From IMG/VR virus record IMGVR_UViG_3300037672_001695, positions 1 to 41,173 of that record: a stretch of 41,173 nucleotides of DNA. The stretch is one strand, 5' to 3'. This document shows, in pieces, positions 8,833-14,410 of the stretch. The stretch's first letter is position 1. The number at the start of each line of letters is the position of its first letter. This DNA is from a virus. The translations under genes were made by a program, and so were the position numbers. The notes under the pieces were generated by a model, which was given only the letters and a program-made list of their open reading frames with translations, was not told the DNA's origin and made no database searches.

Positions 8833-9063
8833 ATGTCTGAAAACACAGAGAGTAAATATAGTCCTGCACACTATCAACAAGGATCTATTCAAGTATGGGA
8901 CTTCATCGCTGATCAAAACTTAGACTTCTTCTGTGGTAATGTCGTAAAATATGTCTGTCGTGCTGGTCATAAACCTCATGAAGACTACCTACACGACCTC
9001 CGTAAAGCACAGGTTTATATTGAAAAAGCATTATTACTTGCATCTCAAGAAAGAAATCGCTAA
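8833..9063 (+). CDS. DUF3310 family protein
   Basis: A 76-residue protein with the DUF3310 signature in order: HYQ near residue 14, a central WDFI, then FFCGNVVKYVCRAGHK and DLRKAQVYIEKAL. This family is common in phages; some annotations call it a nucleotide kinase, but I know of no firm basis for that, so no function is claimed. It has the usual length. It follows a near-consensus sigma70 promoter and is the first of two plus-strand genes expected to be early. Confidence 0.9.
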   Translation: MSENTESKYSPAHYQQGSIQVWDFIADQNLDFFCGNVVKYVCRAGHKPHEDYLHDLRKAQVYIEKALLLASQERNR

Positions 9064-9071
9064 ACTATACT

Positions 9072-9078
9072 CTAAATA
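9072..9078 (+). promoter_or_regulatory. CTAAATA late-like box
   Basis: CTAAATA lies 28 bases before the ATG of the CxxC protein. The same variant occurs before two structural genes (24575-24583 and 39513-39521), so it may be a late box; the isolated match is short. Confidence 0.35.
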
Positions 9079-9105
9079 ATTTGATCAATTACTACTGTTC
9101 TCCCC

Positions 9106-9375
9106 ATGAAAAAATGTGAGAAGTGTGGTGCTACCTGGATGGAAGGAGTACTCTATTGGCAAGGCACCGGCAAACCAGGTAAAGATCTCGATCTTGCTGG
9201 TCTAGTATGCAATAACCTTAGAGATGATGATCCCGATTCCTCACTGTGCATCAACACTTCTAGAGGCAAAACTGGTGGCGATACCTGGGAATATCGTCGT
9301 GGTTTCATAGATGGTGCCTATACATCCCTCAAAAAACAACGTGAAGATATGAGAGATAACTTTTCTGATATTTGA
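9106..9375 (+). CDS. Small CxxC (zinc-ribbon-like) protein, 89 aa
   Basis: It begins MKKCEKCGATWMEG; the CxxC at residues 4-7 and two later cysteines (in LVCNN and SLCIN) could bind one zinc ion. A central W-Y-W cluster and a C-terminal helical, charged stretch (SLKKQREDMRDNF) follow. No family recognised. The function could be nucleic-acid or protein binding, but this is a guess from the metal motif. Its stop codon is embedded in the -35 element (TTGACG) of the next promoter. Confidence 0.7.
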   Translation: MKKCEKCGATWMEGVLYWQGTGKPGKDLDLAGLVCNNLRDDDPDSSLCINTSRGKTGGDTWEYRRGFIDGAYTSLKKQREDMRDNFSDI

Positions 9376-9400
9376 CGAATTTCAAAACCCTTGCTATAAC
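9372..9400 (+). promoter_or_regulatory. Sigma70 promoter leading directly into a terminator
   Basis: TTGACG (9372-9377), 17 nt, TATAAC (9395-9400) with extended -10 TGCTATAAC. The predicted start near 9407 is only about 12 nt before a strong intrinsic terminator, so the product would be an RNA of about 45 nt unless termination is overridden. Confidence 0.65.
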
Positions 9401-9418
9401 TACATAGTTGAACACTTC

Positions 9419-9452
9419 TCCCCCCTCGAAAGGTATGGGGGGGGATTTTTTT
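9419..9452 (+). terminator. Strong intrinsic terminator
   Basis: A C-rich arm at 9419-9427 pairs with a G-rich arm at 9437-9445 (about 9 bp, nearly all G-C) around a nine-base loop, followed by seven T. It ends the DUF3310/CxxC transcript and separates it from the structured region. Confidence 0.9.
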
Positions 9453-9672
9453 ATGGGCAATTTTTTTACCCTGGGCGTTTTGGGTATCTGAAAAAATAAA
9501 TGGATTCGACTTCTAGAGGTCGTCTGGAAACGTTTGTAGGTTAGAAAGAAGGTACTTATTTTGCAACCCGCCCCCCCTTCGCAACACATAAGGGGCATAA
9601 TAACTGTCTCTAAGTGTTATTCACGGTGTGCGGAGTAAGTGTTAGATAGGGGGCATGATTGATGGCAGTTAG

Positions 9673-9686
9673 TGTGAGGAACTGTG
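9673..9686 (+). repeat. 14-nt direct repeat, copy 1
   Basis: TGTGAGGAACTGTG, identical to 9845-9858. Here it fills the terminal part of the large hairpin 9643-9699. Confidence 0.85.
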
Positions 9687-9844
9687 TGCCCCTTATCTAT
9701 CACTGAGTGTTGTGTGATTCCCCCTGTGTTCGTTACAACGAGTATAAGCGATATTCACGGGGTTTGGGTGACTGTCTGGGACACTTTGTGGACTGTCACA
9801 TTCACTTAGTGTTCGCATGTTGGTGAACTTTGGGGGTTGCATTC

Positions 9845-9858
9845 TGTGAGGAACTGTG
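9845..9858 (+). repeat. 14-nt direct repeat, copy 2
   Basis: Second exact copy of TGTGAGGAACTGTG, 172 nt downstream. Again it is mostly in the loop of a hairpin (9840-9866). A related ACTGTGAGG lies at 9876-9884. Confidence 0.85.
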
Positions 9859-9904
9859 ATAGAATGGGCAGAAAAACTGTGAGGGTCTCGATGTTACTTA
9901 GCGG

Positions 9905-9935
9905 GTCTCATAGTGTTTCACTGTGTCTCATAGTG
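9905..9935 (+). repeat. Tandem 11-nt repeat (GTCTCATAGTG) inside the last hairpin
   Basis: GTCTCATAGTG occurs at 9905-9915 and 9925-9935 with a 20-nt period, both inside the long stem-loop 9892-9952. The first copy pairs with CACTGTG at 9919-9925. Confidence 0.8.
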
Positions 9936-10013
9936 CGACCGCTAAGGTAACAACAACCACGAGGATAATGGACGACTAAGTGACATTACCAAACCTTATA
10001 CAAAAAGAACATA

Positions 10014-10021
10014 TATTTATT
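10014..10021 (-). promoter_or_regulatory. Late-type box (AATAAATA) facing the gene-free region
   Basis: The minus strand reads AATAAATA, overlapping the stop codon of the gene at 10021. It would drive transcription leftward through the structured region, giving an antisense RNA; no coding frame follows. Confidence 0.35.
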
Positions 10022-10188
10022 CACACATTTATATAACACTTAGTATTTGCAATAACACCCCACGAAATAGCATCAACGGGGTGCATATTTAGCAAACTAA
10101 TATACACCTCCATTGGGAGCACACTATTAGTTTTACCAATAGATCTTACCCTCTTAGATGACACTAACTCATAGGATGCGCGTTTCAT
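10021..10188 (-). CDS. Small protein, 55 aa, function unknown
   Basis: I translated this by hand; it begins MKRASYELVSSKRVRSIGK and ends ANTKCYINV. The N-terminus is basic (about six Lys/Arg in the first 20 residues), the rest mostly hydrophobic. Its ATG overlaps the TGA of the upstream 57-aa gene (ATGA), the usual coupling in this cluster. It is the last gene of the minus-strand cluster before the gene-free region. No family recognised. Confidence 0.65.
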   Translation of the reverse strand: MKRASYELVSSKRVRSIGKTNSVLPMEVYISLLNMHPVDAISWGVIANTKCYINV

Positions 10189-10358
10189 ACATTCTCCAAC
10201 AATTTTACTGTATAACTATCTAGATTCTCTCTAATGTTATTTTCATCAATAACATCTAGGAAGTGTGGTTCTTTATAATTAGACTGATCATAATTCACAT
10301 CATTCTCATACTCATCCCATGCACTGTTGATGTTAGTTAGTGAGTTGAAGTTGTTCAT
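10185..10358 (-). CDS. Small acidic protein, 57 aa, function unknown
   Basis: I translated this by hand; it begins MNNFNSLTNINSAWDEYEND and ends DSYTVKLLENV. It is Asn- and Asp/Glu-rich with few basic residues. It starts 3 nt after the stop of the upstream gene and couples to the next by ATGA. No ribosome site of its own is evident, so translation probably depends on the upstream gene. No family recognised. Confidence 0.65.
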   Translation of the reverse strand: MNNFNSLTNINSAWDEYENDVNYDQSNYKEPHFLDVIDENNIRENLDSYTVKLLENV

Positions 10359-14005: not shown

Positions 14006-14009
14006 TTGT

Positions 14010-14032
14010 GTTTCTCAACTGTTGATACAATA
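14010..14032 (-). promoter_or_regulatory. -10 (TATTGT) with CAGTTGAGA leader
   Basis: TATTGT (14032-14027), then CAGTTGAGAAAC beginning 11 nt from the first base, the same geometry as in the other cluster promoters. The GAGCAC box is not present; a hairpin occupies its place. Confidence 0.6.
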
Positions 14033-14040
14033 CATGAAAT

Positions 14041-14070
14041 AACCGCCTATTCCCCCACGGATAGACGGTT
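14041..14070 (-). promoter_or_regulatory. 10-bp hairpin upstream of the 123-aa gene
   Basis: Arms 14070-14061 and 14050-14041 pair over 10 bp with one G-U in the minus-strand RNA (an A-C mismatch on the other strand), around a 10-nt G-rich loop. It lies between the stop of the 45-aa gene and the next -10, and may act as a terminator without a clean T-run. Confidence 0.5.
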
Positions 14071-14082
14071 TCTTGACTGGCA

Positions 14083-14094
14083 CACTAATTAGTG
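14083..14094. promoter_or_regulatory. 12-nt perfect palindrome CACTAATTAGTG at a gene end
   Basis: A perfect palindrome overlapping the stop codon of the 45-aa gene, next to TGTGCCAG on the minus strand. The half-site CACTAAT also occurs in the loops of hairpins 1 and 3, hinting at a shared protein-binding or RNA motif. Confidence 0.4.
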
Positions 14095-14222
14095 ACGTAA
14101 ATGTTCCTCGCTGTAGTATACTTTGCCTCCATCAATTTGATGGCATGGTGGATACTAACAGCAGTGAAACTTTCTTCGATTCGATAACCCTCAACGAGAG
14201 CACTGACGATGAATTGTCTCAT
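14085..14222 (-). CDS. Small protein, 45 aa
   Basis: I translated this by hand; it begins MRQFIVSALVEGYRIEESFT and ends ARNIYVTN. A good ribosome site (AGGAG) lies within the end of the upstream gene, and the start overlaps its stop (ATGA). The pattern strand-helix-strand (QFIVSALVEG...HHAIKLMEAKY...NIYVTN) looks like a tiny alpha/beta domain. No family recognised. Confidence 0.72.
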   Translation of the reverse strand: MRQFIVSALVEGYRIEESFTAVSIHHAIKLMEAKYTTARNIYVTN

Positions 14223-14374
14223 TCTGAATCTCCTGGTAAAAACTCTTGGAACTCGTGAAAATAGTAGTCTTCAGTGATACCTATCTTGTTACAGAAGAAT
14301 TTCACTGAATCATACTCAGTCTGATCCATTTCAACGAGGAAATGTTCAGTTTCAACGGTGATTACATCATTCAT
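14219..14374 (-). CDS. Small acidic protein, 51 aa
   Basis: I translated this by hand; it begins MNDVITVETEHFLVEMDQTE and ends FQEFLPGDSE. It has about 14 Asp/Glu and only two Lys. It couples to the 45-aa gene by ATGA and carries that gene's ribosome site. No family recognised; its charge would suit a DNA-mimic, but size and context alone do not show this. Confidence 0.68.
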   Translation of the reverse strand: MNDVITVETEHFLVEMDQTEYDSVKFFCNKIGITEDYYFHEFQEFLPGDSE

Positions 14375-14410
14375 AGTGAAATTTGGGTACATTGATAATA
14401 TACAAGAGAT

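Follow-up and report, generated by a model that had tools for sequence, protein, structure and literature searches.

The window, which is the entire 41,173-nt stretch of DNA that was analysed, is an IMG/VR fragment of a T4-like cyanophage that encodes tail-fibre and porphyrin-biosynthesis-type proteins, and in which no gp25 was identified. The largest gap between its open reading frames (ORFs), exceeded in length only by the left contig end, spans positions 9376 to 10020 (645 nt) and has its closest DNA matches among Synechococcus T4-like phages. The second largest such gap, of 405 nt, lies at positions 14006 to 14410. The 645-nt gap is flanked on the left by a rightward operon ending in a strong terminator and on the right by leftward small ORFs, and it is a conserved, gene-free and hairpin-rich cyanophage region with the following features.

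9419 to 9452, plus strand: intrinsic terminator of the rightward operon, with the stem TCCCCCCT..GGGGGGGGA followed by TTTTTTT, located by a terminator scan and kept in relatives.
9518 to 9557: conserved 40-nt block GGTCGTCTGGAAACGTTTGTAGGTTAGAAAGAAGGTACTT, which isolates from 23 named Kyanoviridae genera share with many IMG/VR contigs.
9534 to 9544: near-invariant core TTGTAGGTTAG inside the conserved block, exact in the window.
9591 to 9611, minus strand: hairpin adjoining the conserved block, AGGGGCA..TGTCTCT as written on the plus strand.
9612 to 9955: lineage-specific, gene-free hairpin array with 81 to 95% identity in L114, L142 and L158 (also in L040, L159 and L160).
9638 to 9704: strongest hairpin of the array, wherein arms 9638 to 9655 and 9687 to 9704 form 16 Watson–Crick pairs, one G-T pair and one mismatch.
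9892 to 9952: terminal hairpin of the array, GTTACTTAGCGG.. with CCGCTAAGGTAAC, whose loop has the direct repeat GTCTCATAGTG.
10021 to 10014, minus strand: predicted T4-type late promoter AATAAATA, pointing leftward into the gap, with an inferred start near 10008.

A preliminary description of this DNA had held that nucleotides 9500 to 9955 lack a plausible gene and are G/T-rich on the plus strand, and both statements are borne out. The ORFs in this interval are short, and no long stop-free frame is common to four relatives, whose reading frames differ by stops and 1-nt indels; across relatives, no long frame stays open in the gap on either strand. The GC skew rises to +0.36 and the AT skew falls to −0.21. 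The same description treated the interval as a single object. Conserved and hairpin-rich it is, but it consists of two different things, namely a family-wide conserved element (9518 to 9611, comprising the 40-nt block and its adjacent hairpin) and the lineage-specific array (9612 to 9955).

In distant blastn searches, only the left part of the gap (approximately 9514 to 9610) has relatives among isolates, wherein it occupies a gap between small genes and is nearly always unannotated. The element is found in S-CAM1/3/4/7, S-WAM1/2, S-RIM8/12/14/32/44, Syn1, Syn9, Syn19, Syn30, Syn33, S-SM1, S-ShM2, P-SSM2, P-SSM5, P-SSM7, P-RSM1/3/6, S-RSM4, Bellamy and others. A single query matched 319 records, nearly all of them cyanophages, and hundreds of records carry the element overall. 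Both the core and its orientation are kept at all 26 isolate loci that we read, which represent the 23 named Kyanoviridae genera, and each of six whole isolate genomes has one strong copy of the core. Variants of the core occur in P-RSM6 and S-CAM7 (TTATAGCTTAG), S-SRM01 (TTATAGTTTAG) and S-T4 (TTATAGATTAG). The orientation of the element is constant, and its position is at the end of a leftward small-gene cluster near gp25/gp6. Minus-strand genes lie to the right of the core in nearly all contigs, including the window, and in the annotated isolates; to its left, both gene orientations occur.

Because these sets of loci had been gathered via the core or its surroundings, an independent test was made in which viral contigs were fetched by their gp25 protein and those with more than 2 kb of upstream sequence were assessed. 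In most of these contigs, the core precedes gp25 by 2 to 3.4 kb, lies on the strand expected and has zero to two mismatches, and this is also true where the gp25 protein is distant (46 to 60% identity). Most gp25 contigs without the core had too little upstream sequence. A longer form of the core has no match in hosts (84,980 bacterial and archaeal species, one genome per species), and the core has no second conserved match elsewhere in the phage genome that would mark it as a target or seed. No description of the element was found in the literature searched.

Several other identities for the element were considered and rejected. The core could be drawn as a hairpin (AAC..GTT), but its sequence changes are uncompensated. 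A small ORF with a Shine–Dalgarno sequence (AGGAGGGACCCATGGAT.., in S-CAM4-type phages) has neither its start codon nor its frame preserved in other groups, wherein 1-nt indels occur. The string GGATTCGAC near 9502 resembles the 5′ end of a tmRNA, but ARAGORN finds no tmRNA and the string is absent from core-bearing relatives. A host origin of the sequence and a coding leader were likewise discarded.

Annotation around the element is uneven. Doubtful small “hypothetical proteins” have been placed over or beside it (L232 2321–2521, L223 2560–2661, L242 1473–1574 and L239 57–218) in the records of Syn1, Syn19, P-SSM7 and S-E7, and in Syn19 an annotated small gene overlies the early promoter. In P-SSM2, a gap of approximately 960 nt without annotated genes contains the element (L225 2414–3371). 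In several phages, the first or second gene to the left of the element belongs to an AbrB/MazE-like DNA-binding family (phrog_661; for example, L224 2044–2214 and L227 2265–2441), and its product is a candidate regulator of the element.

Read 5′ to 3′ on the minus strand, the element comprises in order a sigma-70 promoter (in many lineages), a hairpin such as GGGGGCAG..GCCCCC, T-rich sequence, 25 to 40 variable bases and the 40-nt block. The promoter is present in Syn19, Syn33, S-RIM8, S-H35, P-SSM7, S-SM1, Syn9, S-MbCM6 and Bellamy; the start point expected from it coincides with the hairpin in Syn9 and S-MbCM6. Of 64 nonredundant loci, 10 have a minus-strand sigma-70 site (11 or 12 of 12 matches) 30 to 250 nt to the right of the core, where 0.1 are expected, compared with one plus-strand site on that side. 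To the left of the core, no plus-strand site was found in these 64 loci, and no conserved plus-strand promoter precedes it. The window itself has no sigma-70 promoter on either strand, and many phages, including the S-CAM and S-WAM2 types, have no clear consensus site, so a single mechanism may not cover all members. A separate observation concerns L152 and L153, wherein an extended sigma-70 promoter (TTGACA-17-TATAAC) lies on the plus strand approximately 100 to 115 nt to the right of the core; this promoter is kept between two diverged phages and may start a small RNA.

The hairpin stems of relatives read GGGGGCA/TGCCCCC, GGGGACA/TGTCCCC or AAATCGCA/TGCGATTT and, on the minus strand, frequently precede a T-run, as in an intrinsic terminator. 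Among 71 loci, a T-run (at least five T in the next 8 nt) follows the hairpin on the minus strand in 21 and on the plus strand in one. The last of these stems, found in L113 and L108, is an outright replacement, indicating that having a stem is more important than which sequence forms it. In the window, the minus-strand terminator version of this hairpin (9591 to 9611) is degenerate. Taken together, the minus-strand promoters and minus-strand T-runs indicate an element oriented to the minus strand. Where leftward genes follow, an AT-rich, TATAAT-like box (TAAATATT) lies at fixed spacing past the 40-nt block. This box is missing where the left neighbors are on the plus strand, as in the lineage of the window, and the 40-nt block is still kept there. 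The element resembles the intergenic junctions of T4-like phages in having a terminator-like hairpin and a promoter between gene blocks, but differs from them in its strictly conserved 40-nt block, which outlasts the loss of the adjacent late-promoter-like box.

The late promoter at 10021 to 10014 lies at the right-hand end of the gap. Late promoter motifs have been given as TATAAATA for T4 and NATAAATA for cyanomyoviruses, with ATAAATA as the cyanomyovirus core (PMC2984593), and the AATAAATA sequence fits the cyanomyovirus motif. Six ATAAATA sites are present in the 41 kb; four of these sit 27 to 56 nt before gene starts, as expected of T4-type late promoters, one lies inside an ORF, and the last is the minus-strand site at 10020. 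The last differs from T4 late promoters in that no gene follows on the same strand before the convergent operon is reached. The sequence TGTGAATAAATAT is unchanged in L040, L114, L142, L158 to L160 and L234 though the flanks differ, and L156 also has the promoter. From these data, we predict a late minus-strand RNA of roughly 500 to 600 gene-free nucleotides. Such noncoding transcription would have a counterpart in CfrI, the antisense RNA from the psbA region of the T4-like cyanophage S-PM2 (PMC5931967), which lies at a different locus.

The array between the late promoter and the element is shared only with L040 (identical over the compared stretch), L114/L159, L142/L160, L158 and L128/L234, as well as with L156, which has an insertion. 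Two additional matches to the 3′ hairpin came from unrelated phages and were set aside as chance. In L156, approximately 300 nt are inserted after the position equivalent to 9653, between hairpins that are joined in relatives, and the repeat TGTTAGATARGG is present at both ends of the insert. The insert carries a minus-strand ORF of 66 to 95 amino acids (core+172 to core+460, reverse strand) that matches no PHROG and no known family. We read this position as a likely slot for small genes, wherein gain of the ORF in L156 is favored over parallel loss because it takes fewer steps.

For the interval as a whole, we give about even chances to a regulatory, cis-acting transcription junction that is untranslated and is read late, from the minus strand. 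Its left piece (approximately 9518 to 9611) is a copy of the element at which the leftward small-gene cluster ends in T4-like cyanophages. In relatives, the element combines a terminator-like hairpin and the strictly conserved 40-nt block with a minus-strand promoter, which in some lineages is of the sigma-70 type; the AT-rich late-promoter-like box is added where minus-strand genes follow. Most likely, the element works in cis, as a DNA site or as a leader RNA, and separates transcription of the small-gene cluster from that of the sequence beyond. The right piece (9612 to 9955) would be a lineage-specific untranslated hairpin segment behind the late promoter, and the RNA from this promoter would run toward the convergent plus-strand operon. 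The region is proposed to be transcribed on its minus strand, and the hairpins may guard or process RNA ends. Some observations run counter to this minus-strand junction, in that the array folds better as plus- than as minus-strand RNA, the fixed wobble pairs of its best helices are mostly G-U on the plus strand, and the window has neither a sigma-70 site nor an intact minus-strand terminator beside the core.

Ranked second, and in our judgment unlikely, is a functional structured noncoding RNA of the same strand, made late and approximately 500 to 600 nt long, that would act in trans or as an antisense to the plus-strand operon (8833 to 9375 and leftward). The late promoter, which faces a conserved, gene-free stretch and has no gene downstream on its own strand, is consistent with such an RNA, as is a noncoding identity of at least 81% among relatives. 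Moreover, helix columns are less variable than loop columns in several folds (14% versus 29% in the window plus-strand fold, p 0.0006), although the minus strand and the folds of other relatives show this less clearly. However, the minus strand hardly folds better than its shuffled versions (for 9480 to 9960, −112 kcal/mol versus −103.6 +/− 6.3, z −1.32; for 9446 to 10008, z −1.87), such that a structured trans-acting RNA is possible and not favored. Nor do compensatory changes point to one. The alignment of the array has 511 columns and comprises four distinct, fairly similar sequences. In the RNAalifold structure, 96.4% of cells stay paired, and no significant covariation emerges, as double changes affect two of 145 pairs, a number equalled by 63 of 500 shuffles. 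A lack of compensatory changes among homologues is what the preliminary description had named as refuting its proposal, and this lack is observed for the array, with the low power that four fairly similar sequences afford. Finally, the ORF-bearing insertion in L156 is tolerated in the middle of the array.

The preliminary description had proposed instead a large structured RNA on the plus strand, akin to GOLLD or ROOL, which we consider improbable. Plus-strand folding speaks for it, with −162 kcal/mol for 9480 to 9960 versus −140.8 +/− 6.3 in dinucleotide shuffles (z −3.35), and z −3.37 for 9446 to 10008. The two hairpins named in that description exist (in the terminal one, the confirmed pairing is 9897 to 9904 with 9939 to 9946), but inverted repeats built from Watson–Crick pairs only are at most slightly above expectation. 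Arms of at least 6 nt number 12 versus 6.6 expected, with 11 of 200 shuffles reaching 12, and arms of 7 or 8 nt show no excess over shuffles. The contention that all wobbles are G-U in plus-strand RNA was not fully borne out: where non-Watson–Crick pairs are fixed in the best helices, most are G-U on the plus strand, but relatives change both ways. Paired-site changes in plus-strand folds lean slightly toward that strand (43 G-U versus 29 A-C cells), in counts that come from nonindependent cells of a G/T-rich strand, so that the polarity partly reflects composition. For the class of hairpins adjacent to the core (71 loci), the counts are 20 G-U and 30 A-C, which gives no plus-strand bias. Wobble polarity is thus indecisive as a test of strand. 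The stretch resembles GOLLD and ROOL in being large, gene-free and phage-borne, but differs from them in having no covariance-model match (none for 9350 to 10250 even at E values up to 5, and no Rfam match at gathering threshold anywhere in the window), no plus-strand transcription signal and no covariation. Furthermore, plus-strand transcription should stop at the 9419 to 9452 terminator, just before the region, and family-wide signals, including the T-run of the core-side hairpin, point to the minus strand. Most likely, both the strand and the GOLLD/ROOL analogy were wrong.

We are similarly doubtful of a site acting at the DNA level, either a replication origin or a packaging site, wherein the core would be a protein-binding sequence. 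A single-copy sequence of fixed position and orientation that is conserved without covariation would fit this description, and the element is near gp25 in many phages, much as T4 oriF (ori uvsY) directly adjoins baseplate gene 25. However, in T4 oriF is on the opposite side of gene 25, and an origin finds no support in skew or duplex stability. Specifically, in six genomes there is no clear switch in strand bias at the element and no replication-attributable step at fourfold sites, the cumulative skew maximum is 8 to 15 kb away in five of the six, and AT-rich neighboring DNA is exceptionally unstable in only two. For Syn9, replication from one theta origin has been predicted (PMC2984593). The element lies within 40 to 600 nt of an end of the S-SZBM1 (L005), S-E7 (L239) and WH25-B (L238) records, and just to the left of the point where many metagenome contigs stop; assembly may have broken there at a variable gene cluster, the authors may have chosen these ends, or they may be physical ends. 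A packaging site deduced from record ends (S-SZBM1, S-E7, WH25-B and S-M1) was rejected, as the positions differ and may reflect author choice or assembly breaks. Least probable is ordinary intergenic filler without a specific role, in which modular 3′-end hairpins pile up where gene cassettes turn over, since this would suit a lineage-specific array with a slot filled in L156 and empty in other members, but not the exactly kept late promoter, the high conservation of the array or the family-wide core.

Within the cis-acting junction that we prefer, the general result to retain is the 40-nt block that the whole family shares. A bolder proposal, which we put forward tentatively, is that this block with its TTGTAGGTTAG core may be a new essential control element of cyanomyoviruses, joined here to a late-made structured minus-strand noncoding RNA. 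Such an element could be, for example, a leader RNA or a DNA site through which transcription is switched (or replication initiated) at a gene-block boundary. T4-like cyanophages are among the most abundant marine viruses, and to our knowledge most sequence conserved family-wide is genic. The presence of doubtful small “genes” on the element in several records is an annotation problem that should be flagged. A noncoding site of T4-like cyanophages that is kept in hundreds of isolate records offers a target for studying how these phages switch between gene sets.
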